Positions 1 through 14,298 of a stretch of DNA of 14,298 nt are shown in pieces. The notes below the pieces were generated by a model, which had not been told where the DNA came from, made no database searches, and saw nothing but the letters and a program-made list of their open reading frames with translations. The translations under genes and the position numbers were made by a program. How positions within the stretch are numbered: position 1 is the first letter of the stretch; every line of letters starts with the position of its first letter. This DNA comes from Phycisphaerae bacterium (GTDB lineage: Bacteria; Planctomycetota; Phycisphaerae; Sedimentisphaerales; Anaerohalosphaeraceae), in assembly GCA_021736615.1 (NCBI GenBank), contig JAIPFN010000139.1, forward strand, positions 1-14,298. The letters are read 5' to 3'.

Positions 1-1071
1 TGTCAGGGCCGACGCACCGTCATCAACAACATTCGAAGTCAATGACACAGGCTCATCCGACCACGTGACCATATCCGGAGTTAGAATGTCTACTAGTTGA
101 GGACCAAGGTCAGAAGCGGTAGTGAAAGAATACACATCACTTTCGCATGGATCTGTGACCGCTTCGCCATTGAGATAAGAAATTATCTGCCAGTAGTATG
201 TGCCCCCGGCAGCGGCGGTAACTTGCGTAGTAGTCGCATTTGCAGCACCGGTAAGAACCTTTTGCATGTCGTAACCCGGAAGGGCCGAGTTTGGTTCTGT
301 GCCAAACATCACGTCAACATAAACGGTATCGCCAACATTAGGGTCCATGTTTGTCCAGCTAAGATCGACAGTACCGCCGCCAACGACTTCGCCGTCATCA
401 GGTGAAACATTCATCTTATCAGATTTTAGAACAATGTTATCGTAGTAGATATCATGGAAGTAGGTCCCTATGCCCTTTCTGAGCCTGACAGCTATTCTTT
501 CACCCAGTTTTGCCGGGTTCTCACCCGATTTGTAAGTAAGGATTACAGGGTTTGCTGCCAGATCATTTGAGGTGATGAATTCTCTAGCCGTAGCCAGCAC
601 TGTCTCTGCGCCGCCACCAGAAATGGCTATCAGTTCGACATGATACTCAATTTCATTGCTTCGACTGGAAGCTGTATTGAGTTTGAGCGTATAGGTTGTG
701 TTCGCCTCAATCGCAACATCAAGAGAATCTGCCGTTGTTGTCAGTCTGGCTTGTGTGTCACCACTAGGGATATTATTAAATACGTACAAAGCCTGATCGC
801 CGAAAGAGTTAATGAACATCTCATCCCCCGGCACATTAACGGATTTATCTCTTACGGCTATATATTTTTGACCGGCACCAACCCAGCCGGGCCAGGCTCC
901 GTCTCGACTGTTGGCAAAACCTACGATTTGCCATGTTCCGGGACTTTTCGTCGTAGTCACTGTAAGATCCGGATTCTCAAAGCTTTCGGTGAAGATTACT
1001 TTGGCGCCTGCCGAGGTCGTCAGGATGATCGCCATCACCATTGCAAGCATTACCAATTTCTTGTTTCTCAT
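1..1071 (-). CDS. Secreted carbohydrate-binding-like protein with FN3-like and PKD-like modules, C-terminus cut by window edge
   Basis: The reading frame is open from an ATG at 1071 to the window edge, giving 357 residues without a stop. The start follows AAGGAG (1080-1085) by eight bases. Residues 1-23 look like a signal peptide (basic MRNKK, hydrophobic stretch, then SAGA). Residues 24-217 begin with VIFTESFENP and end with HDIYYDNIVL, the pattern of jelly-roll carbohydrate-binding-like domains. Residues 220-320 look like an FN3/Ig-type module, with SWTNMDP and TYYWQI. From about residue 326 a PKD-like module begins; its DMVTWSDEPVSL matches the equivalent stretches of the proteins at 7739-8860 and 8918-10357. 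By analogy the missing end probably carries the same linker and dockerin-like unit, but this is not visible. No catalytic motif is seen. A binding or scaffold role at the cell surface is inferred. Confidence 0.85.
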   Translation of the reverse strand, partial: MRNKKLVMLAMVMAIILTTSAGAKVIFTESFENPDLTVTTTKSPGTWQIVGFANSRDGAWPGWVGAGQKYIAVRDKSVNVPGDEMFINSFGDQALYVFNNIPSGDTQARLTTTADSLDVAIEANTTYTLKLNTASSRSNEIEYHVELIAISGGGAETVLATAREFITSNDLAANPVILTYKSGENPAKLGERIAVRLRKGIGTYFHDIYYDNIVLKSDKMNVSPDDGEVVGGGTVDLSWTNMDPNVGDTVYVDVMFGTEPNSALPGYDMQKVLTGAANATTTQVTAAAGGTYYWQIISYLNGEAVTDPCESDVYSFTTASDLGPQLVDILTPDMVTWSDEPVSLTSNVVDDGASALT

Positions 1072-1322
1072 CGTTTAAACTCCTTAAAAAAAAATTAGAT
1101 TGGCATTTCAATGTATCGAGTTACTTGCCCAATACAAAACACCCTTTTACATTTTTTTAATCAATGATGCTGTTGAGGAGATTGCCTGTTGATGATGTTA
1201 TTTAAGGAGAAATTGCCCCGGGGAGTTGTTTATTGACGGAAATATACAGGCGGCTGTACCGGCTGGCTATAAAAAGCAAAGCCGAAACAGTTGACAATTC
1301 CATCAAAACACGATGTCTTTTC

Positions 1323-1386
1323 ATTTTTCCCAAATCACCAATCCAAAAGCCTCATCCCAAATTCAGCAAATCAAATTCAGCAAATA
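1323..1386. repeat. Degenerate short-period A/C-rich repeat tract
   Basis: The tract is built from variants of CAAATC and CCAAAT words. It includes an almost exact 14-base tandem pair, AAATTCAGCAAATC followed by AAATTCAGCAAATA, from 1359. It resembles the AATCCAAAATCC-type intergenic repeats of many environmental genomes. That comparison is from memory and was not searched. Confidence 0.45.
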
Positions 1387-1408
1387 GAACCCAAAAGAGA
1401 CATATTTC

Positions 1409-1437
1409 AGACTATCACATCAAGCAGATTCTGTCAA
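1409..1437 (-). promoter_or_regulatory. Candidate sigma70-like promoter
   Basis: On the minus strand a perfect TTGACA (1432-1437) is followed after 17 bases by TAGTCT (1409-1414), a weak match to TATAAT. It would drive the gene starting at 1071 with a leader of roughly 330 bases. Promoter rules in this lineage are poorly known, so this is only a sequence match. Confidence 0.25.
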
Positions 1438-1517
1438 GAGAAAAACAATCAATAAGCTTAAAAAGGTAGAAGTTAGTAATAATGGCTTTTTTGATATTAA
1501 GGCAAAAGTAACTATCC

Positions 1518-1991
1518 TTATGGTATATGCATAAGCATTTCGATTGGTTTCCATTGCTCGCCTTTTGGGGCATCGGGCAGGCGTTTCTGGCAAGCATCGG
1601 TTATGGGCCACCACTTATCGCGGATCGTTGGATTCTCTTTGAGCTGGGCGAAATCCTTTTCGAGGTCATCGCCGGCATATTCCAGGTAGGAAAAAAGATA
1701 TTTTTTGCCAGCCAGTTCCGTCATGAAAATGCTGTAGTTCTGGATATTGGCCTTCTTGACGGCGGTGACAACTTTGGGCCACACATCTGCATGGAGCCGG
1801 CGGTATGACTGTTCTTTTTCCGGAAGCAGTTCTATAACTGAGGCGAATCTCTTAACCTTGGCACCGGCCTTCTGGTCGGCCGTTGGATTCGTAGTACCGT
1901 AAACCGCTTTAACCGAACTGCTATCGGGAGTAGACGAACAACCGGCGAAAAAAACAACAAGGGCGATCAGGCCAAAAAGATAAGATTTCAT
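1518..1991 (-). CDS. L-rhamnose mutarotase-like lipoprotein
   Basis: A 157-residue protein with a lipoprotein signal: MKSYLFGLIALVVF followed by the lipobox FAGC (Cys18). The mature part matches the L-rhamnose mutarotase family (RhaM, DUF718/PF05336). It has Y63-R-R-L-H67, then W71-P, then N85-Y-S-I, a WW pair at 127-128 and a short hydrophobic end, LMHIP. In E. coli RhaM the equivalent Tyr and His form the active site that interconverts alpha and beta L-rhamnose. The ATG at 1991 is chosen over one at 2045 because it starts directly before the signal peptide and follows AAGGA at a normal distance. Classical RhaM is cytoplasmic, so a lipidated version is unusual and suggests periplasmic or surface action on released deoxysugar. 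It could act on fucose or another 6-deoxysugar. Confidence 0.85.
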   Translation of the reverse strand: MKSYLFGLIALVVFFAGCSSTPDSSSVKAVYGTTNPTADQKAGAKVKRFASVIELLPEKEQSYRRLHADVWPKVVTAVKKANIQNYSIFMTELAGKKYLFSYLEYAGDDLEKDFAQLKENPTIRDKWWPITDACQKRLPDAPKGEQWKPIEMLMHIP

Positions 1992-2080
1992 TGTATTTGT
2001 CCTTAAGTAAGATTTCCCGTATAAACGTTTAGAAAAAAGTTTCAACCCAAAAAAGCTGGTTGATATTCGGTTGATAGATC

Positions 2081-2129
2081 AAAAATTAAAATGTAAAAAG
2101 CAAAATCAAAAATACAAAATCAAAAAAAT
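2081..2129. repeat. A-rich degenerate repeat (CAAAATCAAAAAT words)
   Basis: The stretch is nearly all A with periodic C, T and G. It has two copies of CAAAATCAAAAA separated by a short ATA-containing spacer. It looks like the low-complexity intergenic repeats found scattered in some environmental genomes. Its function is unknown. Confidence 0.45.
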
Positions 2130-2193
2130 TGCACAGGGTGTTTCGCTGGGTCATACTTGCAACAATTGTAAATCTTGCTTGTTTTCTTTTTTT

Positions 2194-2223
2194 GCCACAG
2201 AGGGCACCGAGGGCCACAGAGAG
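2194..2223. repeat. CCACAGAG-type tandem triplet
   Basis: Three back-to-back near copies of 9-10 bases: CCACAGAGGG, CACCGAGGG and CCACAGAGAG, preceded by a T-rich run. From memory, this CCACAGAGACACAGAGG-style sequence recurs between genes in many environmental bacterial genomes. No database check was made. Confidence 0.55.
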
Positions 2224-2319
2224 TTAAGAAAGTTATTATTTAACCGTAACTAAAAGCTAATCGGCACTGATACTGTTACATGGCAACATAAATAGTCTTA
2301 TCAAAATCGTTTTTTGCTG

Positions 2320-3888
2320 TCAAGTTTTTTTGTTCTGTTTCTTTGGTACTGGGCTTTTTGGAGTTGCTTTCGTTTTTCTGCCGGTAATCTCTTGCTTGGC
2401 TGACCATGGAATATTGCGGTCAAAGAGCGTGGCGTATTTCTGGTAATTGTTGTAGGGCACGGCGTGCTTTTTCCATGCGGCTAATTCCTTGTCGTAATTG
2501 TTTCGCATTCTTTGAAGGTCGGACTTGTATGCAGGATCGTTTGCGAGGTTTTTCAGTTCCAGCGGGTCATTGGCCGTGTCGAAGAGTTCCTCGGTCGGAG
2601 TCATGTCTTCGCCGGCGTACCACCAGTAGGTGTATTTCCAATCTTTCGTAAGAGCCGTCAGGCTGTGGGTAGGTGTCGTGCCCCATACATTTATAAATGC
2701 CATGTGCTCGCGGATTCCTGTAGAGGGGGTTTCGATTAAGGGGAGAAGACTCTTGCCGTCGATGTTTTTCGGAAGCGGCAGACCGGCGAGTTCGAGGATC
2801 GTAGGTGCAAAGTCAATATTGCCTGTGAGCGCCTCGCATCGGAGTTTCTTGCCGGAAGTTTTGCTTCGCGGGTCGAAGATCATCAGCGGCACGCGCGAGG
2901 ACTCTTCCATGGGAAGGACCTTGGAAGCGTAACCGTGCGAGCCGCAGATATATCCGTTGTCGCTGGTGTAAATAATGACGGTGTTATCGGCGATTCCCTG
3001 GCGGTCAAGTTCATCTCGGATCATGCCTATCGAAACGTCTATGGCATAGACAAGCTGGTTGTATTTGGCCATTACGTTGTCGTAATCTGTGTCGTATTTC
3101 CATTCGCTGAAACGTGTGTATTGCCGCCCTTTTTTGCTTTGCTCGGCAAGGTGGGTTGCGTAATTTCTGCCGAAGTTACCGGGTTTTTTGAATTTCTTAC
3201 CGGCATATACATCGTCAAATTTCGGGTCCGGTGTTACCGGTCGATGCGGGGCCTTGTAGCTGATCTACAGGCAGAATGGCTTTTCTTCTTTTACCGCCCT
3301 CTTTATGACATCCTGTCCGAATGCACCATAAGATAAAGTTGAGTGCGGGTATTCCTTTGCGTAAGCAGCCATAGATTCATTCTTTGCAGTTTCGTAATTT
3401 GTCTGTCCGGGGCCGCCGCCCCATACATCGAAGTCTTCCTGGCAGAGTCCTTTGCCTTCAACCTCAAAGCCAAACTTTCCGGCGAATGCGGTGAGGTATC
3501 CGCTGTTTCTGAGCAGGACCGGGTAGGACTTGTTCCATACATCCGGTTTCATGTTGCCGTGTGAGAAATTGCAGCCGGTTTTGTATTCGTACTTGCCGGT
3601 CATTGCATTTGCCCGGCTTGCCATACAGATCGCCGTCGTATCGTAGTGGTTATCGAATATTACGCCGTCATTGCCCAGTCGATCCATCTGCGGTGTTTTT
3701 ACGTCCTTATTGCCGTAACAGCCAACCGAATATGTGCACTGGTCGTCAGCTAAGAGAAAGATTATGTTGGGGCGTTTGGCTTGTCTGGTTTTGTCTTGTG
3801 CATACAGACTTTTGCCAAGGGCAAGGCAGCAGCCGGCAAGACCCAGGGCCTTTAGAAAGTCTCTTCTATTTCGTTTCCTAGTTTGCAT
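2320..3888 (-). pseudogene. S1-family sulfatase interrupted by one in-frame amber codon
   Basis: The frame encodes a 522-codon S1 (formylglycine) sulfatase broken only by TAG at codon 208 (3265-3267). Before the stop lie a twin-arginine signal with RRDFLK (residues 8-13), the metal-binding ADDQ (47-50) and the catalytic C88-M-A-S-R92, whose Cys would become formylglycine. The CxAxR form is one that anaerobic sulfatase-maturing enzymes accept. After the stop the same frame continues at once with ISYKAPHRP, then TSDNGY near residue 310 and GSHGYASKV. The C-terminus is Lys-rich. KPFCL-stop-ISYKAPH aligns with KPFCLFMSWGPPH of the sulfatase at 13121-14298, so a single substitution explains the break. 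The start at 3888 gives a compact Tat signal and begins one base after the TAG of the phosphatase gene; an upstream ATG at 3912 would overlap that gene. A sequencing error or readthrough is possible. TAG ends two neighbouring genes, so general amber reassignment is unlikely. Confidence 0.85.
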
Positions 3889-3889
3889 T

Positions 3890-5326
3890 CTATTTTTCCA
3901 GAGTGTTAACATCTTCGTTGTTGATGTTTCCGTCGACTCCGTAATGTCTGAAAGTGATCTTCGGCGTACCGCTAACTCTTTCGACGGTTACAGATAAAAA
4001 TCCGCCCTTTACTTTCAGGTAGCGATGCATTGGTTTTCTGTTTTTTTCGCTATATCCGCCGGCGTGCTTATCCGAACTCGGGCCACAGCCGAACTCTTTT
4101 GCACCTGTTTTCGGATCAACCGACACGTATTGCCAGTGGCGGTCGCCGCAGATGACGAACATGTTTTGTTTGCCGATGAACTGTCGAATCTGATCGCCTT
4201 CATAAGTAAAGCCTTCGTTGGCGTAGCTATCGTTTTTATTTTGGCGGTCCGGCCCTACGATGGGCGTCGGGCTTATCAGAATGCGGAATGTCGCATCGGA
4301 TTTGCTGACCGTATCGAAGAACCATTCCTTCTGCTTTTCGCCCCAGATGGTCTTTTCGGGGCCGTCCGGCATATTGTTGGGGCTTCTGAAATCGCGGCCC
4401 TCGACGAGCCATATCTGCAAATCCTTGCCCCAGCGAATCGTCCTGTAGGTCTTTTCGCCCATGGGTACCTGCTCGCGGAAAATCGCCAGTCCTTGATCCC
4501 ATGTCAGTTCGCGTCCATAGGTCTGGCCTGCCCAGCAGTCGTTCCTTAGAGTATCATGGTCATCCTTCATGAAGTAACTGGAAACATTATTATGAAACTC
4601 ACGCTGGAAAGGCATCGAAAAAATCCGATTCCACTTGAACCTTGCAAGAGCAACGTCATCAGCAAATGGAAAGGGTTTGTCGTAGTATTCAATGTCACCG
4701 GTATGGACAAAAAAGTCCGGGTCCATCTTTAGCATCGTGCGATATATCTTGTGGCCGTTGTCCGGATCATCACGATTGGGGTATTCCTGGCAAGTAACAA
4801 CGTTAAAGTGTATTTTCGATATGGTATCAGCTTTCAGTGCGGTCAGAAACCCGCCCACCACTTTGGATGTGACCTTATCGTTTTCTGTAGAGCGACCTTC
4901 GGCGATTATAGAGTATTTCGTACTCGGCAACAGCCCTTGAAGTTTTGTTTGAAATGTAAAATCCTTATCCGGGCTAACCGGCTGCCATTGAGTAGACTTT
5001 TTCTGTTTATCATCACCTTCGGGCCAATATGTAAACCGCACCTGACCGCTAATGCCGGGAACGGCGGCGTCCATCACTTCAAGATCATAAACATACTCGC
5101 CCTGATTCTGTTTATCCCACGGATTTTTGCGTTCGGGGAAAGGCTTGCCATCGATATTGCGTTCGGGGCGTTTTGTCAGCCGCGTCCAGACGATAGCCGA
5201 CGATGAATCAACTTCGCCAATTTTAATGCCGTTAGCCATATAGACCGCTTCGGTTTTCGTTTCGTTAGCGGCAAAACATCCGCTGACAAATAAACCAACA
5301 GTAAATAAAACTAAAATCCTTTTCAT
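3890..5326 (-). CDS. PhoD-like metallophosphatase lipoprotein
   Basis: A 478-residue protein with a lipoprotein signal ending in VSGC (Cys17). Residues 28-165 look like the N-terminal beta-sandwich of PhoD-like phosphatases, with ANGIKIGEV and AIVWTRLT. The metallophosphatase core carries HTGD (208-211), DDHD (255-258), RDFRSP (311-316), SPTPIVGPD (352-360) and GDRHW (394-398), in the usual PhoD order. PhoD enzymes are secreted phosphodiesterases or phosphomonoesterases using Ca and Fe. The substrate here is not evident. Its place between two lipoproteins and a sulfatase suggests a role in glycan or phosphate processing at the envelope. AAGGAA lies seven bases before the ATG. Its TAG stop is one base from the start of the sulfatase downstream, so the two are probably translationally coupled. 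Confidence 0.9.
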
Positions 5327-5403
5327 TTTTAATTTCCTTATTAATATTATTGAGCATTGCTAATGCTGTTTTGTTTCTTGTTTAACTCTAATATTCAGTT
5401 TTA

Positions 5404-6417
5404 TTATTGCCTGAGTTCTTTCAAAGCGTCCTGTATTTCCTGTATTGAGACCTGCAGTTCGTTATCTAATCTTGATCTTACAGCGCTTACGTTGGGATTG
5501 CCCGGATCCTTTGTCAGAACTTCATTGATAAGAGCTTCTGCTGCCCCGAAATTCCTTGCTTTTATATGGCTGTCGGCAAGCTGAAGTTTGGACTCCATAT
5601 CCTTTTGTTTTTTACTCTTCGGGCTTGTAATATTTTCAATAAAATTTCTCAGGCCATTATTATCAAAATCGGTTAAAGTCAACTTCTCATCCACAGGAAA
5701 CCCCGTCGGCGGGACTGCTACCATTCTAAACTCAGTTCCATTATGCAAATAAAAATATGAGTTGTGATTAATATATTCAGATATACCGCTTACAGACCTT
5801 GGTTTAAACAGCATTTTGTTAGTTTTATTGTCAACTGCATAATACGTCAACTCGCAAGTAGCTCTTAATTTCTCCGACCATGCAATGACGGCGTCTTCGG
5901 TGCTGAGATTTGTGCCCAGAATATCAACTATTACATACAATGTTTTCTCACCGCCCCTGGCAAGAAAATCCAAGCCGCTCATCCGCATTTTTAAAGTAAG
6001 AAAGGAGTTGAAGTAATTCATGTCCTCATTTGAACGGAACACAGTCGGACGGAACTCGGGTCTGGCTCTGTATGAAATACCTGCATCCCAGCCATCCCTG
6101 ATATTATCACGAAGATTCGCCATATATTCGGTGTTAAAATCGCTAATACTGCCCGATAAGTTAGTAAACCCCGAATTCATTATCCATCCGCCGCCATCTT
6201 GTGAAAGATTAGAAATGATAAAAGAAACCTTTTGGCCTTTAAGTTCTGAAAAGTCCATCTGAGCAATCGCTGTCCTTATACAGCCGGCTACAACCCTTTG
6301 CTCTTCGTCAAATCTCTTGCCGCCACCATGAGCAGGAACAACCCGCCATGTGCCGCAGCCGGAAATAAAAAATAATAAAATGACTGCTGAAAATAAGATG
6401 CTTTTTTTAATTAACAT
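5404..6417 (-). CDS. MafA-like lipoprotein with C-terminal TPR-like tail
   Basis: A 337-residue lipoprotein (signal then ISGC, Cys21). The mature start GTWRVVPAHGGGKRF, then EQ-x-x-V and AQMDFSELKGQKV, closely follows the start I remember for neisserial MafA, CGTLTGIPAHGGGKRF, with EQ-x-x-V and MDL-x-AL-x-G further on. Later parts also fit: LYVIVDILGT (160-169), a Thr-x-Glu-Leu-x-Tyr-x-Ala-Val-Asp strand near 187-196, and KMLFKPRS. Residues 272-320 look like a TPR or TPR-like helical pair (ADSHIKARNFGAAEALINE, then DPGNPN), absent from MafA as I recall it. MafA is an adhesin-like lipoprotein encoded beside MafB polymorphic toxins; no toxin or immunity gene is visible here. The ATG at 6417 is chosen over the adjacent GTG at 6420 because GGGAG lies six bases before it. 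The role is unknown; a surface binding or assembly role is guessed. Confidence 0.75.
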   Translation of the reverse strand: MLIKKSILFSAVILLFFISGCGTWRVVPAHGGGKRFDEEQRVVAGCIRTAIAQMDFSELKGQKVSFIISNLSQDGGGWIMNSGFTNLSGSISDFNTEYMANLRDNIRDGWDAGISYRARPEFRPTVFRSNEDMNYFNSFLTLKMRMSGLDFLARGGEKTLYVIVDILGTNLSTEDAVIAWSEKLRATCELTYYAVDNKTNKMLFKPRSVSGISEYINHNSYFYLHNGTEFRMVAVPPTGFPVDEKLTLTDFDNNGLRNFIENITSPKSKKQKDMESKLQLADSHIKARNFGAAEALINEVLTKDPGNPNVSAVRSRLDNELQVSIQEIQDALKELRQ

Positions 6418-6446
6418 CACCAGCTCCCAATATTGACTTGAAAAAT

Positions 6447-6501
6447 GCTTTTACAGGCAGATAACTGAAATTTTGTTTCCGGTAATTTCACTTGTAAAAG
6501 C
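6447..6501 (-). terminator. Nested hairpin with T-rich tail between esterase and MafA-like gene
   Basis: An outer nine-base inverted repeat, GCTTTTACA (6447-6455) with TGTAAAAGC (6493-6501), encloses a second seven-base one, TGAAATT (6466-6472) with AATTTCA (6484-6490). In the minus-strand transcript the structure follows the esterase stop by 16 bases and is followed by ATTTTTC. That fits an A/U-rich intrinsic terminator or attenuator. It ends about 30 bases before the start codon of the next gene. Confidence 0.45.
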
Positions 6502-6517
6502 CGTATACGATTAACGT

Positions 6518-7525
6518 TCATTTCTTATTAGCAGAAATAAGATCGACCATAGAGTCTCCCATTGATTTACCTATGAGATATAAGGTTTCCCAGTTACGGA
6601 ACCAATGGTAGTCCTGCCTTGAGGGAGATTCTTGTTGGGGTCTCTGGAAGCCGCGTGTTTCTACGCCGGCTACGTTGCCTTTGAACTGGGGATATTTCTT
6701 CGCGTCGGCAGGTGCGAGCTGGGCTTCCATAAGCTTTTCGACTTTTTTCTTGTAACGAGCATTTTCCGGAATGTCCCATCCGCCCATACCTGTGTTTGCG
6801 ATCACGAATGGCAAATTCTTGACACCCAGGTCTTTTCTGATGTCGTTTACGAAGTTGACCATGTTTTTCTCGTAAACATCCACTGCATTTTGATCTATGC
6901 GGTCGTTCCATCCCTGATGCCAGCCGAAGCCGACTATCTCATAGCCTTTGCCCGTATAACCCGGATAGTACTTTTTCAAATTACCTGTAATTTCTTTAAC
7001 ATGCCTGAGGACTTCTGAATACTGAAAGCCTGCATCACCATCTTTCTGAGGGGTGGGATACTCCTTCGAGCTTGGAGGCAAAAAGTTATGCGAAAGCGAC
7101 CTGCCGCCCCATGCCGATTTAATAAGCAGAACAGGATCTTCATAATAGTCACCAACAACAAAACCAAAAGCGTACTCAGGGCCGATGTGACCTTCGCTTG
7201 CTCCGTAACCGGTAGTAAGCGGGCCCTGCTGCTCTTTGTCTTTATAGGACAGGTTTACGATCCATACGTCATCACGGACAACATTCTTGCCATCCTTGTC
7301 GACGAGTTTGCCGTAGTCTTTTGGATTGCTTTTAACATATGTCTCCATGGTTCCAGGGGTGCCTTTAAGTTGGCCGAACCCGACCATGTTCGACTGGCCT
7401 GACAGAATAAATATCTTCAGCTTACCGTTGGCGGGGCAGGTTTTCGCTGCTGCCGATGCGTTAGAAATTGACATTAAGACTGCTGCTATCAGACACAATA
7501 CTACAAATAACTTTCTCCTGCTCAT
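6518..7525 (-). CDS. Secreted SASA-family carbohydrate O-acetylesterase
   Basis: A 335-residue protein with a signal peptide (MSRRKLFVVLCLIAAVLMSI, cleavage near ASA-A at about residue 26). It has the SGNH/SASA (PF03629) pattern: LSGQSNM with nucleophile Ser45, a central GWHQGWND (201-208) and a C-terminal DYHW (305-308) giving the catalytic Asp/His. Such enzymes remove acetyl groups from polysaccharides or sialic acid; the sugar cannot be told here. It is a clear paralogue of the esterase at 8918-10357 but stops after the catalytic domain, without PKD-like or dockerin-like modules. The ATG follows AAGGAAA at about eight bases. A perfect 12-bp inverted repeat lies 31 bases upstream and a hairpin follows the stop, so it may be its own regulated unit. 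Confidence 0.9.
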   Translation of the reverse strand: MSRRKLFVVLCLIAAVLMSISNASAAAKTCPANGKLKIFILSGQSNMVGFGQLKGTPGTMETYVKSNPKDYGKLVDKDGKNVVRDDVWIVNLSYKDKEQQGPLTTGYGASEGHIGPEYAFGFVVGDYYEDPVLLIKSAWGGRSLSHNFLPPSSKEYPTPQKDGDAGFQYSEVLRHVKEITGNLKKYYPGYTGKGYEIVGFGWHQGWNDRIDQNAVDVYEKNMVNFVNDIRKDLGVKNLPFVIANTGMGGWDIPENARYKKKVEKLMEAQLAPADAKKYPQFKGNVAGVETRGFQRPQQESPSRQDYHWFRNWETLYLIGKSMGDSMVDLISANKK

Positions 7526-7555
7526 CGCTATGTTTCCTTTCGTAATCTTAATAAC

Positions 7556-7582
7556 TCAAACTGACCGTTTCGGTCAGTTTGA
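7556..7582. promoter_or_regulatory. Perfect 12-bp inverted repeat upstream of esterase
   Basis: TCAAACTGACCG (7556-7567), three T, then CGGTCAGTTTGA (7571-7582) form a perfect palindrome with a three-base centre. It lies 31-57 bases before the start of the esterase at 6518-7525. There is no T-run after it in the direction of transcription, which argues against a simple terminator. Its TGACCG...CGGTCA symmetry looks like a dimeric repressor operator of the TetR type, but this is inference. It could also be an RNA hairpin shielding the leader. Confidence 0.6.
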
Positions 7583-7585
7583 AAT

Positions 7586-7619
7586 GAATAATGTCTATTG
7601 TATAATGTATAATGAATGA
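7586..7619. repeat. TATAATG-type degenerate repeat
   Basis: The stretch contains successive variants of TATAATG and TGTATAATGAATGA. It resembles the ATGTATAATGTATAATG intergenic repeats that I recall from environmental genomes. No search was made. Confidence 0.45.
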
Positions 7620-7662
7620 TACGGCCTGACGGCCGAGGCTATTTTACAAAAAACAGACATTG

Positions 7663-7691
7663 CGTAATCCTCTTAAATGCAAGGGGTTACG
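7663..7691 (-). terminator. Imperfect hairpin downstream of the cassette protein, weak terminator candidate
   Basis: On the minus strand CGTAA, CC and CTT pair with AAG, GG and TTACG, with one mismatch and one bulge and a six-base loop. A run of six T (7648-7653 on the complement) begins nine bases after the stem. The hairpin starts 47 bases after the stop of the gene at 7739-8860. The distance to the T-run weakens the call. Confidence 0.3.
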
Positions 7692-7738
7692 TGAAAACTT
7701 TTTATTCACAACAAATCACCTGCAATTTGAGTTGGAAA

Positions 7739-8860
7739 TTATTTTTCAATCGGATTGGTCAAAGAATAATCAACCATCCAATCGGCGGCCATCTGGGCGA
7801 GGTCTTCAAGGCCTGTACCACAGTTGGCGTTAAAGTCAGCCGACTTTATCGTCACAGTACCGGCGCCAAGGGCGGCCTTGCAGGCATCATCGTAAACGTC
7901 GATAGTCATCGAAGATTCTACAGGCTCTTTGCCAGACTGGGTTACCGTAAGTGTCAATGTGACGGTAGACGGATTGCCGGGCTCTTTGGTAATCGTAACC
8001 GTTGGCATCTCAATGCTAGTCGAATCGAACACAACCCCAGTGTTTGGTACCGCACTCCAGGCATAGGTAAGTTCCCCCGCGCCGGAATCATTATTAGTAA
8101 CGTCTACATCGTTTAAAGTAACAGGTTGTCCCGACCAGGTAGCCCAGTCCGAACCGGCAATGACAGTAGGGGCACTCAGGTCTGTCACTCCAAACTGTAT
8201 GCCGCACGGCCCGAGATGATTGAAACCGTTACCCCAAACCTTAGCCGTGAAAGAAGAACCGGACACACCTTTAAAGATAATATAGTTGCCCGGAGTTGTA
8301 CCGTTGACGACCTCAACAAAAGTGCCGTCAAATCTTTGTTTCAGTGCTGTAAAGTCCTGCACAGGGCCGCCGTTAAAACTATATTTACCCGTATTGTCCC
8401 CCCAGTTACCACCCAGATAAATGATCACATCGTAAACATCCAGGGTAATATTCGACATCACCATGCTGAATATCAATGAATCATCATACGGATCTTCGGT
8501 GGCATTAACATGGCCATCCATCATGTCAGCATTGCCATCACCAAGCATAGTGGTACGGACGCCATTATAAGGACCGCCATTACGGGCACTTATTAAGTCA
8601 AATGTTGCCGTAGAACCATTATTACTGGTTATCTGCATCGGGGGCAGACCACCTTCCATACCATGGCCCATTACAATATTTTTCCAACCGGTAGTAAGCC
8701 AGGCATCCATACCCGCAGCTTGCCCCGCCTCCAATGTTAAATTTCCATTGGTATCATCTTTATAAAAATTAATGCTGAAGATGTTCGAATCGGCTAACAG
8801 GGGTTCGCAAAGAACTGCTGCCAAACACAATAATACTGAAATCAATAATAACTTTTTCAT
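7739..8860 (-). CDS. Secreted beta-sandwich protein with PKD-like and dockerin-like C-terminus
   Basis: A 373-residue protein of unknown function. Residues 1-24 are a signal peptide ending in LLADS. Residues 28-225 form a beta-rich domain starting IFSINFYKDD and containing NIVMGHGMEGG, VIIYLGGNWGDN and a late FKGVSGSSF-type strand; I recognise no catalytic motif. Residues 229-321 are a PKD-like module (WATWSGQPVTL, LTYAWSAVP, NPSTVTLTLTV). Residues 320-365 carry DVYDDACKAALG and one dockerin-like unit, ADFNANCGTGLEDLAQMAADWM. The same C-terminal cassette is in the esterase encoded just upstream (8918-10357), 57 bases away, so the two probably share an operon and a location. The ATG at 8860 is preferred over a GTG at 8878 because AGGGGA lies seven bases before it. 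A glycan-binding or surface-assembly role is inferred. Confidence 0.8.
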   Translation of the reverse strand: MKKLLLISVLLCLAAVLCEPLLADSNIFSINFYKDDTNGNLTLEAGQAAGMDAWLTTGWKNIVMGHGMEGGLPPMQITSNNGSTATFDLISARNGGPYNGVRTTMLGDGNADMMDGHVNATEDPYDDSLIFSMVMSNITLDVYDVIIYLGGNWGDNTGKYSFNGGPVQDFTALKQRFDGTFVEVVNGTTPGNYIIFKGVSGSSFTAKVWGNGFNHLGPCGIQFGVTDLSAPTVIAGSDWATWSGQPVTLNDVDVTNNDSGAGELTYAWSAVPNTGVVFDSTSIEMPTVTITKEPGNPSTVTLTLTVTQSGKEPVESSMTIDVYDDACKAALGAGTVTIKSADFNANCGTGLEDLAQMAADWMVDYSLTNPIEK

Positions 8861-8917
8861 AGTAATTCCCCTTTTCACGAAATATTTTCCTTGGTATCTT
8901 TTTCAAACAATAACATT

Positions 8918-10357
8918 CTATTTCCGTATCGCTGCAGACGGCACATCATTACTGAGCCATTGCAAAGCAAACTCTGCAAAATCGACAATATCTATAATAC
9001 AGTTCCCATCGAGGTCAGCTGGATGATCCGCTGAAAGACCCTTTCCGATCGCCGCCTTACACGGATCATCGTAAACATCGATCGTAATTGTATTTTTCAC
9101 GCTGTATCCGCTGCGCCCGCTGAGTCCGATCCTGCTGGCATCATTGACTTTAAGTACCAGGGTAACTGTCGATGGATTATTGGTTGGTTTGGTGATCGTA
9201 ATAATTGGAGATGCAATTGCATCGTTTGAAAACACAACACCTGTAGTTGGTTTTGGGTTCCATTTATAAGTCAGATCCGTCCAGTCAGACCCGTCTCTTT
9301 CAACAATATTCGGATCCAGGATTACCGGCTCACCGGACCACGTGATCATATCGACACCGGCATCGATATCAGGAGCATCAGGGTCGACCAATAAATCTGC
9401 CATCCCTTCACCCATTCCCTGGCCTATAAGGAAATAAGTTTCGGCGCTGCGGTTCCAGTGATAACCCTGATCGGCAGGCGATACGGCCACTTCACGCCAG
9501 TAGGGGCGTGTGTCGTCAACAGCAACGCCCCCTATAAATGACGGGTACTTCGTAAAGTTAGCCATCGCAAGCTGCCCAAATTCTGTACCTGTACTTGGGC
9601 TTCCACCGCCCATACCCGTAGTGGAAATGCTAAACGGCAGATTCGGCAAACCCAGATCTGCACGGATATCCTTGATAAAGTTTACCATGTTCGCCTCATA
9701 TGCAGCGTCCATAGCAGGAGTAACGCGGTCATTATAGCCCTGATGCCATCCGAGCCCGACTATCTCGTATCCGTCGGCAGGATTGTAACCATCGCAAAAA
9801 GATAACGGGTCAGCCTTGAAGTCAGCAACAACATCCAGGATCATCTTGTAGTAATACCCACGCTTGCCATCAGCAGTCGGTATTTCGTCCCAGCCGGAAC
9901 TTGGCGAAAGAAAATCATAGCCAAGGCTCTTGCCTCCAGCTGCGATCTTGAGTATAAACACCGGGGCTTCATAAAAATCACCCATAACATTTCCAAACTG
10001 AAGTTCCGGACCAATGGTAGTATTAGACCGTCCGTAACCAACAGACAAACCCCCTTTGACAAGACCGTCATCTGCGCCAGTGGCACTAAGCCTCTGGTAC
10101 CAGATCCAGACATCGTCACGCACGGCCCAATTACCATTGCCGTCTTTGAGATGACCAAAAGTCGCCGGATCATTAGCAACCAACGTTTCAAGATGCCCCG
10201 ACGATGTTCCGATCATCTCGCCATGGCCTTCCATATTGGATTGTCCGGCCAGGATAAACACCTTCAGAGGCTTACCGGCATAAACCGTCCCGCTAAACAC
10301 AATAGCAATCAGGAACAGGTAGAGACAAAAATTGTAGACGTGCTTTGATAATCTCAT
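8918..10357 (-). CDS. Secreted SASA esterase with PKD-like and dockerin-like modules
   Basis: A 479-residue protein. Residues 1-27 are a signal peptide (YLFLIAIVFSGTVYA). The SASA/SGNH esterase domain (30-325) has LAGQSNM with Ser40, GWHQGYND (203-210) and DQGYHW with His300. A PKD-like module follows (328-427), then DVYDDPCKAAIG and a dockerin-like unit, DLDGNCIIDIVDFAEFALQW, near 448-467. It should deacetylate an extracellular polysaccharide while the tail holds it on the cell or on a scaffold; the tail function is inferred. It is a paralogue of the esterase at 6518-7525, sharing VRDDVWI, IGPE, VGD/MGD-x-YE, GG-x-SL and EIVG-x-GWHQG blocks. The start at 10357 follows GGAG by eight bases and directly begins the signal peptide; an ATG at 10396 would add 13 residues before it. 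Confidence 0.9.
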   Translation of the reverse strand: MRLSKHVYNFCLYLFLIAIVFSGTVYAGKPLKVFILAGQSNMEGHGEMIGTSSGHLETLVANDPATFGHLKDGNGNWAVRDDVWIWYQRLSATGADDGLVKGGLSVGYGRSNTTIGPELQFGNVMGDFYEAPVFILKIAAGGKSLGYDFLSPSSGWDEIPTADGKRGYYYKMILDVVADFKADPLSFCDGYNPADGYEIVGLGWHQGYNDRVTPAMDAAYEANMVNFIKDIRADLGLPNLPFSISTTGMGGGSPSTGTEFGQLAMANFTKYPSFIGGVAVDDTRPYWREVAVSPADQGYHWNRSAETYFLIGQGMGEGMADLLVDPDAPDIDAGVDMITWSGEPVILDPNIVERDGSDWTDLTYKWNPKPTTGVVFSNDAIASPIITITKPTNNPSTVTLVLKVNDASRIGLSGRSGYSVKNTITIDVYDDPCKAAIGKGLSADHPADLDGNCIIDIVDFAEFALQWLSNDVPSAAIRK

Positions 10358-10494
10358 CTTATAACTCCGAAAAAAATTATTATCGGTACTTAACATAATT
10401 GAGCAACGCGCCCAGCGTCAAATACCATGCATATTAACAAATAACACACTAAATCTTACTGATTTTATCACTGCCAAAGCTCGTATCTTTTTAT

Positions 10495-10551
10495 GAATTA
10501 GCCCGGTACAAAACACATATACCATCCAAAGGCTAATTCTGGTATAATTAG
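10495..10551 (-). promoter_or_regulatory. Overlapping inverted repeats with two exclusive pairings
   Basis: GGCTAATTC (10531-10539) can pair with GAATTAGCC (10495-10503) across 27 bases. Part of it, CTAATT (10533-10538), can instead pair with AATTAG (10546-10551) across seven bases. The two pairings exclude each other, as in an attenuator. The arms are A/T-rich and short, so chance remains possible. Confidence 0.3.
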
Positions 10552-10577
10552 TCCTTATTGCTTCAGGTCGCCAAATA

Positions 10578-10605
10578 ATTTTATCTATTTTAACAAAATA
10601 CTCAA
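10578..10605 (-). promoter_or_regulatory. Candidate sigma70-like promoter for the modular esterase
   Basis: On the minus strand TTGAGT (10600-10605) is followed after 16 bases by TAAAAT (10578-10583), five of six matches to TATAAT. Transcription would start near 10570, about 210 bases before the ATG at 10357. The region is A/T-rich, so chance matches are likely. Confidence 0.3.
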
Positions 10606-10705
10606 AAAAGAGCAACATAATAAGTTGAAATTATTAAGCATAATCACAATAATACAAGCAGCTATGGCCAGTAAAGGGCTTTTAAGAGGCTTATTGCAGC
10701 TATGC

Positions 10706-10885
10706 TTATTTGTACACCTTTTCAATGACAATATCGACCAACTTACCGTCGTTACCGGCTTTGGCCGACTTTTTCTGACCGGCAAATTCAACCGTTACCT
10801 TTTTACCCGGATCGGACCAACCCCAGACAGGGACATCCATCTGCTGCTGCAAAATCACATTGTCGCAAAAAAGCCGAAACTGCAT
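10706..10885 (-). pseudogene. Remnant of a sialate O-acetylesterase N-terminal domain
   Basis: A 59-residue frame starts six bases after the stop of the GH29 fusion gene and ends at TAA (10706-10708). It contains LFCDNVILQQQMDVPVWGWS, DPGKKVTVEFAGQ and NDGK. This is the well-known N-terminal beta-sandwich signature of sialate 9-O-acetylesterases (usually LFSDNMVLQ, P-V-WG, G-x-V-TV-x-F-x-G-Q, DGKW). The protein normally runs to roughly 500-650 residues. Here the signal peptide and everything after DGK are missing, replaced by LVDIVIEKVYK. The simplest reading is a decayed or internally deleted esterase gene. A small expressed beta-sandwich protein is possible but less likely, because there is no signal peptide and only a weak AGAG ahead of the ATG. 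Confidence 0.7.
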
Positions 10886-10891
10886 TATGCG

Positions 10892-12997
10892 TTACTCTTT
10901 AGGTTCTTCAAACTCGCCCTTGTCATTTTTTATCGAATCAACCGAAGCGCCGTGGTAAGCGCGTGCCAGAACGGCAATGTTTTTGTCGTCGCCTCTAAGT
11001 TCGCTGACAGGTTTTGACATTATCCCTTCCAGCGGGATAAGTCCACTCATATTACGAGGCTTGGCGAAACCATAGAGACCAACGCCTGCTTTGAGGGCCT
11101 CGGGAACAACCTTGGTTGCATCCTTGCCGTTCCACAGTGCAAGGCATGTGATCAGGCGTGTGTGTTTACCGACCATCGATTTAACCTGATCGATACGCTT
11201 CATGTCGCCGCTTTCGTTCATCAGCCAGTCGGCCTCTTTATACATATCCGAGTTAATGGCGTGCGGATGATTCATTTCGTTGGTCGTCAGCCAGATAAGG
11301 CAATTCGGGTTGGCATCTTTTGCGGCCTTGCGGATGGCTTTCCAGCAGCGGTCAATAGCTTTGCGGCTGTAGGCGAGGTCCTGGTCTTTGGTGAGTTTGT
11401 CTTCGCCGGGGAATTCTTCTTCCATAAGCTGGTTGTAAAGTTTCTTTTCGCATTCAAGCCATTTGCCCTGAGTCGACAGCCGTTTCGGCATCCACACCCA
11501 GTCTATCATAAACCCGTCAATACCCGTCCTGCTGACGGCGTCACTGATCGATTTAGACAGGTAATCGAGATACTCGTCGGTATACGGAATATGGTATGTA
11601 CTCGGCTTGTCGTAGCTCAGTTCGGGATGGTCCGCAGCCCATTTGGGATTGGAAGCAATACAGAAATACCCAAACACCATCATTCCTTCCTTGTGGCCCA
11701 GTTTGACCATCTCCGGCAGAAAGTCGTGCTTAAGGCCGGGCTGTTCGGGAACAAAACCATTCTTGTACCAGGCATAACCGTTGCACGAAACGCAGAACGT
11801 CTGGATAACGTTGGCACCGATTGACTTGTACCATGCCACATGAGCAGCGGGATCTGAATTCTTCCAGGAACCCGGCGCAGCGAACCGGCGGCGACCGCCC
11901 CAGTTAAAATCAAGACAGTATGCCTTGATGTCCTTGACCTGCTTAAGCTCGTCAAGGTTAGCCTTTGGCTTTTCGGATTTTTCGGAGGCTGTTATCATCT
12001 CGCCAACCTCCTTAAGAGTCTTTACGTCGATGTCGCGGATCTTGCCGGCATAGTTGGGTCCGACGTCTATCGAGAAGATATTACCGTATTTCTGTGCGCC
12101 CTGGTAATCCTCGAACAGCTTGGTTGCCGTATGGCAAAGGTTGTCGTGTTCGGGAAGAGAATAGAACCACATCGCACCGCCTTTGTGCTTTGGCAGGATC
12201 GGGTAGGTGAATTCGGCTAAAAGGAAGTCATGTCCCGACTCGCCGCCTTTATTGTGAGGTGATGCCGCTTTTGCATCTCCCAGGGGACCAGGCCCTCCAA
12301 CTTCACGCAGGGCAATTCGTCCCGCTTTTTCGCCATGGTTAAAACCTACAAATGTGTTCGGCTGGAATTTGTGCATCCAATCGACTGTATCTTTGTGCGA
12401 AAGTCCCCCCGTTCCTACCGCGTGATCCATCCACCAGAATTCGATAGGGCCGTATTGAGTCAGCAGTTCCTTAAGCTGTGCCTTTTTCATTTCAGGATTT
12501 ATACCGCCACCGACCCGACCGCCTTTGCCATCAACCGCGCCCGGCCAATTCCAGTCACCCTCGGAGAAATACAGAGCCAGTTTGATACCGTACTTATCGC
12601 AGGATTTGCGAAGCTTTGCAAGAACATCGATACCGAGCGGACTGTTGGTGACTTTCTTTTCGGTAGTCTTCGTATCCCACAGACAGAACCCGTCATGGTG
12701 CTTGGCAAGAAAAAGTATGTATCCCATCCCGGCGTCCTTAGCCGTCTTGCACCACTGATCCGTATCGCAGCCGGTCGCTTTGAAGAAGGACGCGTCTTTG
12801 TCAAGCGTCGGCGTCCATTCCTGCCCATAAAATGTGCTGAACGACCAGCAGATGAACATACCCCACTTCATGTCCTGTATCTGTCTGGCGCGAACATCAT
12901 CGTCGAGTTTGGTCTTGTTAATTTCAGGTGCGGCCGAAAAAGCCGTCGCGGCCATTGCCAGGATCAAGAATAATGCGATCAATCTAGTTTTCATCAT
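10892..12997 (-). CDS. GH29 alpha-L-fucosidase-like domain fused to a second glycosidase-like TIM barrel
   Basis: A 701-residue secreted protein with a signal peptide to about residue 22 (AFSA-A). Residues 35-340 match GH29 fucosidases: MKWGMFICW, YILFLAKHHDGFCLWD (93-108), GIKLALYFSEGDW (137-149) and IEFWWMDH (185-192), where Asp191 fits the GH29 nucleophile. Residues 355-685 do not match the usual GH29 C-terminal beta-sandwich. They read as a second barrel: AYCLDFNWGGRRRF, HVAWYKSIGANVIQTF, GMMVFGYFCIASNP, TGIDGFMIDWVW (Asp499) and IWLTTNEMNHP (Glu574). This resembles GHL6-type hypothetical glycosyl hydrolases. The likely task is removing fucosyl or related residues from a glycan; the second barrel's activity is unknown. 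AAAGG lies close before tandem ATGs at 12997 and 12994; the second has the better spacing. Confidence 0.88.
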   Translation of the reverse strand: MMKTRLIALFLILAMAATAFSAAPEINKTKLDDDVRARQIQDMKWGMFICWSFSTFYGQEWTPTLDKDASFFKATGCDTDQWCKTAKDAGMGYILFLAKHHDGFCLWDTKTTEKKVTNSPLGIDVLAKLRKSCDKYGIKLALYFSEGDWNWPGAVDGKGGRVGGGINPEMKKAQLKELLTQYGPIEFWWMDHAVGTGGLSHKDTVDWMHKFQPNTFVGFNHGEKAGRIALREVGGPGPLGDAKAASPHNKGGESGHDFLLAEFTYPILPKHKGGAMWFYSLPEHDNLCHTATKLFEDYQGAQKYGNIFSIDVGPNYAGKIRDIDVKTLKEVGEMITASEKSEKPKANLDELKQVKDIKAYCLDFNWGGRRRFAAPGSWKNSDPAAHVAWYKSIGANVIQTFCVSCNGYAWYKNGFVPEQPGLKHDFLPEMVKLGHKEGMMVFGYFCIASNPKWAADHPELSYDKPSTYHIPYTDEYLDYLSKSISDAVSRTGIDGFMIDWVWMPKRLSTQGKWLECEKKLYNQLMEEEFPGEDKLTKDQDLAYSRKAIDRCWKAIRKAAKDANPNCLIWLTTNEMNHPHAINSDMYKEADWLMNESGDMKRIDQVKSMVGKHTRLITCLALWNGKDATKVVPEALKAGVGLYGFAKPRNMSGLIPLEGIMSKPVSELRGDDKNIAVLARAYHGASVDSIKNDKGEFEEPKE

Positions 12998-13120
12998 TTA
13001 CCTTTCTTTTATTTTCCATTTTAAATAAGCCCCAACAGCCACACATCATACTACCGTCAGGGGCATCTTTCCGGCGTTACCATTCGGACACAGTATTGCA
13101 ACTTGCCGCCTTCGATAAGT

Positions 13121-14298
13121 CTAACTATTTGGTGCGCGAGAAGCACTATAGTCGATGATCTTCTGTGTGTCGCCAGGGTCGCCGGCCTCGATCATCAATT
13201 CGCGCATACGTTTTTCCAGTTTGGCCTGCACGCTCGCATATTCCGGCTTGTTGATCAGGTTGTTTAGCTGATAGGGATCCTTTTCGTTGTCGTACAGCAG
13301 CCATGGTCCATGATCTAACAGGTTGGCGTAAGTGTAACGCTTTGTCCTCACGCCACGCCATGGTGTAATTGCGTTCATGAGGTATGGCCCTCCGCCGGGG
13401 AGCATTTTCATAAGCAGCACAGCGTCCTGCTGATCGGAATCAGTGCCCTTTGCAGCACCGGAGACATCTTTGCCGTCAACCTTCGGGCACTTAATACCGG
13501 CAAGCGACAATAATGTCGGCATGACGTCAATTGGCGCAACCAGTGCATCGCTGCGTTTGCCCTTTGGAACCGACGGCGGATATTCGACCAAAAATGGAAC
13601 ATTGATCGACTCCTCGAAAGGCATTTGCTTTAAGGCCATCCGGTGACTTCCAAGCATATCGCCGTGATCGGACGAGAACACCAGGATCGTGTTGTCGGTA
13701 AGACCGGCTTGCTTTAACGAATTGCGGATCTTTCCAATGCAATCGTCAAGAGCAGCGGTATGGGCATAATAGCCGTGAATACTCTGTTTCTTGAGCAGAT
13801 CGTCATTTTCAATACCCGCCCGGCGTCCCTTGCGTCCGTTCTTAGATTTTTTCGACGTTTCGTCAAGTTCAATCAAATGATCGACGATAGCCCGTTCGGA
13901 AACATTCTTGCGAAGTTCGATCTTGTCCAAATCAATCCGCTTTTTGTATTCATCCGGAACCTTGTTATACGGATTATGCGGCGGCCCCCAGGACATGAAC
14001 AGGCAAAACGGTTTGTCCTTATTCTTTTTGATATAATCGATAGCCAGGTCGGTCTGAATAACAGATTCGTACCCCTTGAACCTGATCTGTTCGGGCGTGT
14101 CTGTACAATAGAAATTATCAATGTAATTATGGGTGCAGTTGTTAACCGCCCAGTAATCAAACCCCTGACGCCGTTCTTTGGGCACAAAGGGCTTGCGGTT
14201 CCACTCCAGGTGCCACTTACCGATATACCCCGTGGCATAGCCCTGCTTCTTGCAAACCGTAGCAATCGTCTCGAGCCCGTCACGCATGCCGTTATCGT
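13121..14298 (-). CDS. S1-family sulfatase, N-terminus beyond the window
   Basis: An open frame from the right edge to the stop at 13121 gives 391 visible residues; the start, signal peptide and catalytic Cys/Ser motif lie outside. Counting from the internal Met at 14287, the protein has GYIGKWHLEWN (20-30), KPFCLFMSWGPPHNPY (92-107), FSSDHGDMLGSH (204-215; metal ligands Asp207 and His208) and the C-terminal TKRYTY...LLYDNEKDPYQLNNL block, all typical of S1 sulfatases. A basic insertion near 145-158 (SKKSKNGRKGRR) is unusual. These enzymes hydrolyse sulfate esters of polysaccharides in the periplasm or outside. The next gene downstream, the GH29 fusion, is 123 bases away. A GCCCC/GGGGC pair (13029-13064) in that gap is too weak to call a terminator. 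Confidence 0.93.
   Translation of the reverse strand, partial: DNGMRDGLETIATVCKKQGYATGYIGKWHLEWNRKPFVPKERRQGFDYWAVNNCTHNYIDNFYCTDTPEQIRFKGYESVIQTDLAIDYIKKNKDKPFCLFMSWGPPHNPYNKVPDEYKKRIDLDKIELRKNVSERAIVDHLIELDETSKKSKNGRKGRRAGIENDDLLKKQSIHGYYAHTAALDDCIGKIRNSLKQAGLTDNTILVFSSDHGDMLGSHRMALKQMPFEESINVPFLVEYPPSVPKGKRSDALVAPIDVMPTLLSLAGIKCPKVDGKDVSGAAKGTDSDQQDAVLLMKMLPGGGPYLMNAITPWRGVRTKRYTYANLLDHGPWLLYDNEKDPYQLNNLINKPEYASVQAKLEKRMRELMIEAGDPGDTQKIIDYSASRAPNS

Follow-up and report, generated by a model that had tools for sequence, protein, structure and literature searches.

A MafA-family lipoprotein gene in a planctomycete genome

The stretch of DNA analysed here (the window) comprises positions 1 to 14,298, that is 14,298 nucleotides (nt), of contig JAIPFN010000139.1 from a Phycisphaerae bacterium (assembly GCA_021736615.1), and the gene under study, at 5404..6417 of the minus strand, lies between genes for an esterase and a phosphatase. 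Its reading frame of 337 amino acids begins with an ATG at 6417, and its stop codon ends at 5404; there is an additional in-frame GTG at 6420, and a GGGAG that by eye resembles a ribosome-binding site stands 6 nt before the ATG (6424..6428, the minus strand carrying this and all other features of the window described below). The translation opens with a lipoprotein signal peptide (6355..6417) whose lipobox, ISGC, ends in Cys21 (6355-6357), and a lipobox-like pattern occurs in 127 of the 137 rows tested in an alignment of window-type proteins. The signature PAHGGGKRFDEEQR follows (residues 28-41; 6295..6336); it is common to MafA, and its histidine stands exactly 9 residues after the anchor cysteine. 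This spacing is identical in MafA and holds in all 137 window-type rows with more than 15 residues before the histidine (4 of the 141 rows were too short and were left out).

A preliminary description of this DNA, made from its letters, had listed a series of MafA-like motifs, and they are indeed present in the order claimed: the SGC lipobox (Cys21), PAHGGGKRFDEEQ (residues 28-40), MDFSELKG (54-61), VDILGT (164-169) and YYAVD (192-196). They are not a chance resemblance: a database search with the window protein returned 107 proteins at E ≤ 1e-3, its own entry included and the best other at 2e-184, and an alignment search reached 266, of which 120 were listed. Pro28, HGGGKR, Asp132, Asp165, Gly168 and Tyr215 are invariant in 61 aligned rows and at least nearly invariant in 141, Asp165 and Gly168 being the fixed positions of a DILGT motif (165-169; 5911..5925). 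The MafA domain itself spans residues 22-237 (5707..6354) and has a CsgG-like alpha/beta fold in the structural model. At the C-terminus is a helical tail (266-336; 5410..5622), with modelled helices at 266-286, 290-303 and 308-336, that is occupied in 87 of 141 window-type rows. The earlier label of TPR-like suits the modelled helices better than the sequence, in which the TPR_19 match is weak (20.7 bits, cut-off 25); TPR_19 is annotated in 6 of the 107 homologous proteins, and scans of the window protein with NCBIfam and with a Pfam set lacking the PF26521 model gave weak matches only, to this tail.

As a reference we used the MafA of Moraxella nonliquefaciens, an ‘adhesin’ that adjoins a ‘MafB family polymorphic toxin’; this neighbour matches PF06255 (MafB) at E 1e-71. 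BLASTP aligns the window protein with the Moraxella MafA over 252 residues at 29% identity (E 8e-22), and comparison by hhalign of 141 window-type rows with 30 MafA rows gives a probability of 100 and an E of 7.2e-40 over 250 columns, covering window residues 6-246. The family assignment PF26521.1 is precomputed for all 107 homologues of the window protein; a search with the Moraxella MafA returned 457 proteins, and every one of the 120 listed has this assignment, NCBI naming four of them adhesin MafA. By sequence comparison, then, the window gene encodes a distant relative of MafA, the lipoprotein that serves Neisseria in exporting competition toxins. The homology spans the whole N-terminal domain; it extends past the GGGKRF segment in both BLASTP and hhalign, as the preliminary description had supposed when it proposed a wider MafA-like family. 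Such a family is real (PF26521). As far as the accessible parts of the cited papers go, MafA was once held to be restricted to Neisseria (PMC3482391), and homologues without mafB, of unclear role, have since been reported in Desulfobulbus and in one Phycisphaerales bacterium, a planctomycete (PMC7738311).

The window protein shares with the MafA of Neisseria and Moraxella a lipoprotein signal, the Cys-to-His spacing, the same modelled fold class and the motifs P-x-HGGGKRF-x-x-EQ, MDxSxLxG, VDxxGT and YFAVD/YYAVD. In contrast, it has DEEQR where MafA has AVEQE, fewer residues from the first strand to the central helix, an additional TPR-like tail, no mafB and a place in a separate clade. In a tree of 68 chosen rows, rooted at its midpoint and with several long branches, the 35 rows of the window clade fall on one side of a branch with support 100/100; opposite them are 13 MafB-linked rows (99/96), 17 rows linked to type I secretion (93/81) and the loci L073, L081 and L082. 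Partial sequences (L080 and L084) and L076, L036 and L035 were left out.

mafA as the third gene of type I secretion operons

In two genomes from the phylum of a Desulfobacteraceae metagenome-assembled genome (MAG), mafA overlaps an HlyD gene by 4 nt, and a gene for an ABC transporter with a C39-like domain precedes them. A MafA-type alignment search across 193 genomes of the order of genome G754 found mafA in at least 20, with 23 loci between them, and at 19 of the 23 the ABC, HlyD and mafA genes follow in sequence on one strand. These ABC-HlyD-mafA operons, in one order of Desulfobacterota, are a new finding. The gap between HlyD and mafA ranges from -11 to 310 nt (median 18), and ABC and HlyD overlap or lie at most 58 nt apart in 17 of the 19, the distances in the other two being 602 nt (L038) and 1632 nt (L084, where mafA is cut by the contig end). 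Open reading frames (ORFs) of RTX type, some with matrixin-type protease or lipase domains, lie in the retrieved stretch of 14 of 18 ABC-HlyD-mafA loci. The four loci outside this order are L073, where the contig ends beside the gene; L076, where the gene is in pieces and an RTX protein is near; and L081 and L082, which belong to a different subclade and lie on short contigs.

Orthologues of the HlyD were found in 19 of the 193 genomes (identity 55-100%, E at most 6.5e-152, against 5e-50 for the next match), namely in 18 of the 20 with mafA (G1204 and G1210 being without) and in 1 of the 173 others (Fisher p 3.8e-22, a value that overstates independence because the genomes are related). In genome G1133 the order RTX-ABC-HlyD is present (L083, 9669-11024), with mafA found neither behind these genes nor elsewhere in the genome; by eye, a RelE-like and then an integrase-like ORF follow there. 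The second, longer MafA subclade (L081, 2093-3981, and L082, 1-2543, from two genomes of the Desulfobacterota order) comprises proteins of 439 and 448 amino acids; the gene downstream of mafA encodes a DUF2059 protein at L081 and, at L082, an unknown protein that starts with a signal-like segment.

The mafA genomes also have other type I operons, and in four of them, chosen for an OEP match near a second HlyD, the gene for a TolC/OEP channel lies one or two genes behind HlyD; MafA follows HlyD in that place, and the folds of the two are unrelated. Searched with a profile of these four OEP proteins, the ORFs at the mafA loci gave no OEP. Gene order strongly implies an export role for the MafA of the Desulfobacterota operons. 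These proteins share their family and N-terminal signature with the window protein; unlike the window gene, they are encoded third in an operon, often with RTX proteins, and fall in the MafB-side half of the tree.

Modelled fold and candidate membrane hairpins

Foldseek returned CsgG, the curli secretion channel and also an outer-membrane lipoprotein, as the first match for models of both the window protein and the Moraxella MafA, and CsgG is among the best PDB structural matches of the window model, which is consistent with a CsgG-like fold class. In VIA-align, LpoB ranks above CsgG, while LptE, PqiC and HpaA lie within about 1.5 Z of it and Cj1090c is level with it in one of two comparisons; for the window model CsgG, LpoB and PelC score above HpaA, and the second to fourth matches (Fis1 and others) are to the helical tail only. 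The core fold is shared with PelC, LpoB, TraT and FlgT, lipoprotein or ring proteins that differ in their decorations and partners and show no sequence similarity among the PDB matches. Sequence similarity to CsgG is undetectable, PDB sequence searches gave no CsgG and nothing convincing among solved structures, and the MafA proteins differ from CsgG in a long hairpin before the central helix. Membership in the CsgG family of curli exporters was rejected: there is no sequence match, and no csg-type family occurs among the 8 window proteins scanned.

The long hairpin (residues 76-125, strands 83-96 and 105-117; 6043..6192) is variable and is a candidate for insertion into the membrane. Residues 109-118 alternate between hydrophobic and polar, the sign agreeing across all 141 rows, with a mean moment of 1.80 against 0.67 in shuffled sequences (Kyte-Doolittle scale with the values for F, W and Y raised), and residues 83-92 alternate weakly in the window clade (0.80 against 0.71). 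In MafA proper, 248-258 and 261-272 alternate.

A possible outer-membrane exit ring

Published work describes MafA as an outer-membrane lipoprotein that forms a homo-oligomer of about 270 kDa, about eight copies in N. meningitidis; MafB export requires it, and in E. coli it is the sole neisserial protein needed, although its discoverers, who likened MafA to CsgG, left possible the help of a common protein such as BamA (PMC7738311). Gonococcal MafA has been pictured from AlphaFold, with no fold comparison in the accessible text (PMC12574560). Our literature search, which covered titles and the openings of abstracts and took in few subscription papers and preprints, found no further report linking MafA to CsgG or to type I secretion, HlyD or RTX proteins, nor one of CsgG or of TolC alternatives in type I secretion or in planctomycetes. 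MafA may be an adhesin or a secretion channel, and the ABC-HlyD-mafA operons bear on this choice as a genetic test outside pathogens in which the outer-membrane step apparently comes from MafA.

The gene order of these operons, together with the co-occurrence of their HlyD, makes an exit ring with several substrates the probable role of MafA. A general form of this idea is that MafA serves at least two inner-membrane routes, Sec with MafB in Neisseria and Moraxella and ABC-HlyD for RTX proteins in Desulfobacterota, where it would replace TolC, and that the window clade forms a third branch, which stands alone and has a periplasmic receptor tail of its own; we give this scheme even odds of being right. 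That the window gene product is likewise a MafA-family outer-membrane lipoprotein forming a protein exit ring is a proposition on which we are evenly divided. The protein would be cleaved and lipidated at Cys21, and the CsgG-like domains of several copies would assemble into a ring at the inner face of the outer membrane, where the nine-residue leader would place the invariant HGGGKR at the membrane face. One or two beta hairpins per subunit would reach into or against the membrane; the ring would let proteins out in an unfolded or partly folded state, and the C-terminal helical hairpin of the window clade would hang into the periplasm and may collect cargo. For the window protein we infer ring, pore and export purely from homology. 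The preliminary description had spoken of a general surface-lipoprotein role; the evidence allows a more specific reading, since the fold of CsgG type, the oligomer reported in print and the sister clade's type I operons all point towards an outer-membrane exit ring. If the general scheme is true, type I secretion can do without channels of the TolC type, a type I system in which a CsgG-fold lipoprotein ring replaces TolC would be a new architecture, and the MafA family has an unstudied branch in planctomycetes and their kin.

Several observations call for caution. OEP genes lie elsewhere in all 17 of the mafA genomes searched, so MafA is no stand-in for TolC-type channels missing from the whole genome, and type I operons with mafA might conceivably use a distant OEP. 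The second candidate hairpin of the window clade (209-220) shows no alternation, which makes a complete CsgG-like pore less likely there, and, with the orphan setting of the window gene, is a warning for the window protein in particular. Core strands alternate strongly too; alternation is thus no proof of membrane insertion, and that of the long hairpin is supportive at most. A possible reading, to which we attach rather modest weight, is that the protein is a scaffold and no pore, a ring of CsgG-fold lipoproteins that braces or activates another envelope machine (compare LpoB, PelC and FlgT) docked by the tail. However, MafA, the closest characterised relative, is an export protein (PMC7738311), and the first hairpin retains its strict alternation.

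Genomic setting of the window clade

As the preliminary description had it, the gene lies between an esterase and a phosphatase lipoprotein. Upstream is a SASA carbohydrate esterase (6518..7525; PF03629, E 2e-22), 100 nt away, and downstream, at 77 nt, a PhoD-like phosphatase (3890..5326; PF09423, E 1.2e-24) with a lipobox recognised by eye, all on the same strand. The lack of a toxin neighbour was also correctly noted: the 8 window proteins scanned include no match to mafB (PF06255), which the Moraxella locus yielded as a positive control, and no ABC transporter or HlyD gene was found among them.

We compared the setting with 13 other window-type loci that have called ORFs (longest-frame rule; several contigs are short); a fourteenth, L010, has a broken frame and no ORF and was left out. 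Among the 13, L036 is split into two pieces and L035 is divergent: it scores 94 bits against the clade profile, compared with at least 196 bits for the remaining twelve, which have DEEQ. At E 1e-5 none of the genes around the window gene has a counterpart in these loci, and no neighbour is conserved. A shared neighbourhood (peptidase M20 and others) was seen only in the near relatives L032 and L039, and single neighbour families are common to L009 and L042 and to L036 and L039.

This survey runs counter to the suggested tie to polysaccharide degradation; a partnership in sugar degradation was rejected on this ground, and the sugar-degradation setting of the window gene looks incidental. It also makes it unlikely, in our judgement, that the protein is a surface adhesin or a sugar-binding lipoprotein serving the adjoining polysaccharide-degrading enzymes; HpaA falls below CsgG, LpoB and PelC in the fold ranking, and MafA is not protease-accessible on intact meningococci (PMC7738311), although antisera label whole gonococci, a result at odds with a fully protected MafA (PMC12574560). 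The same loci speak to the idea that the protein is a MafA that helps to export a toxin and that its MafB-like partner is encoded at a distance in the genome. Homology to MafA by hhalign favours it, as does the meningococcal MafBII, which is not directly beside a mafA (PMC7738311), but at E 1e-5 the Moraxella MafB matches none of the ORFs called at the 13 loci, and we regard a distant partner as highly improbable.

Window-type genes are rare. They were found in 6 of 294 genomes sampled from the phylum of G001 (a planctomycete MAG) and in 2 of 161 from its order, in 2 of 288 from the phylum of a Kiritimatiellales MAG, and in 3 of 297 from the phylum of the Desulfobacteraceae MAG, where two of the three hits are of the type I-operon kind; these counts, and that for the order of G754, are lower bounds (7 to 13 candidates scored per genome), and each includes its centre genome. 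The HlyD of the type I-operon kind has no match at E 1e-5 in 12 of the 14 genomes with window-type genes.

Two further links were considered and set aside. PilM and secretin genes stand downstream of the relative from the Desulfobacteraceae MAG (L008), as in a type IV pilus locus, at this one locus and with an opposite ORF between; a link to ECF sigma-FecR signalling appears at L009 alone. At L009 (3550-6151, one MAG) the gene for an ECF sigma factor is followed by that for a FecR/CBM11 protein and then by the MafA-like gene, which overlaps the FecR/CBM11 gene by 4 nt.

The L008 protein was also the query that led, among plasmid records, to the MafA that adjoins MafB; it had no match in 50,697 phage records, viral contigs gave 27 and 64 pattern matches, none confirmed, and with the L008 and L037 proteins as queries only two Moraxella plasmids and two gonococcal records were found among plasmids. 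PLSDB holds NZ_CP119140.1 and NZ_CP119142.1 as Neisseria gonorrhoeae ‘plasmids’ of about 2.17 Mb, chromosome-like by size.

The rest of the window offers several observations of its own. The genes at 7739-8878 and 8918-10396 encode C-terminal segments that by eye resemble dockerins and have no Pfam match. A sulfatase gene (2320-3912; PF00884 in both pieces) contains a single in-frame stop at 3265-3267, which may be a mutation, an error or recoding. A member of the L-rhamnose mutarotase family (1518-2045; PF05336, E 2.5e-22) begins with what by eye is a lipoprotein-like signal, FFAGCSS, unusual for a sugar epimerase, and alpha-L-fucosidase (PF01120) and GHL6 glycosidase-like (PF14871) domains are joined in one protein at 10892-12997.
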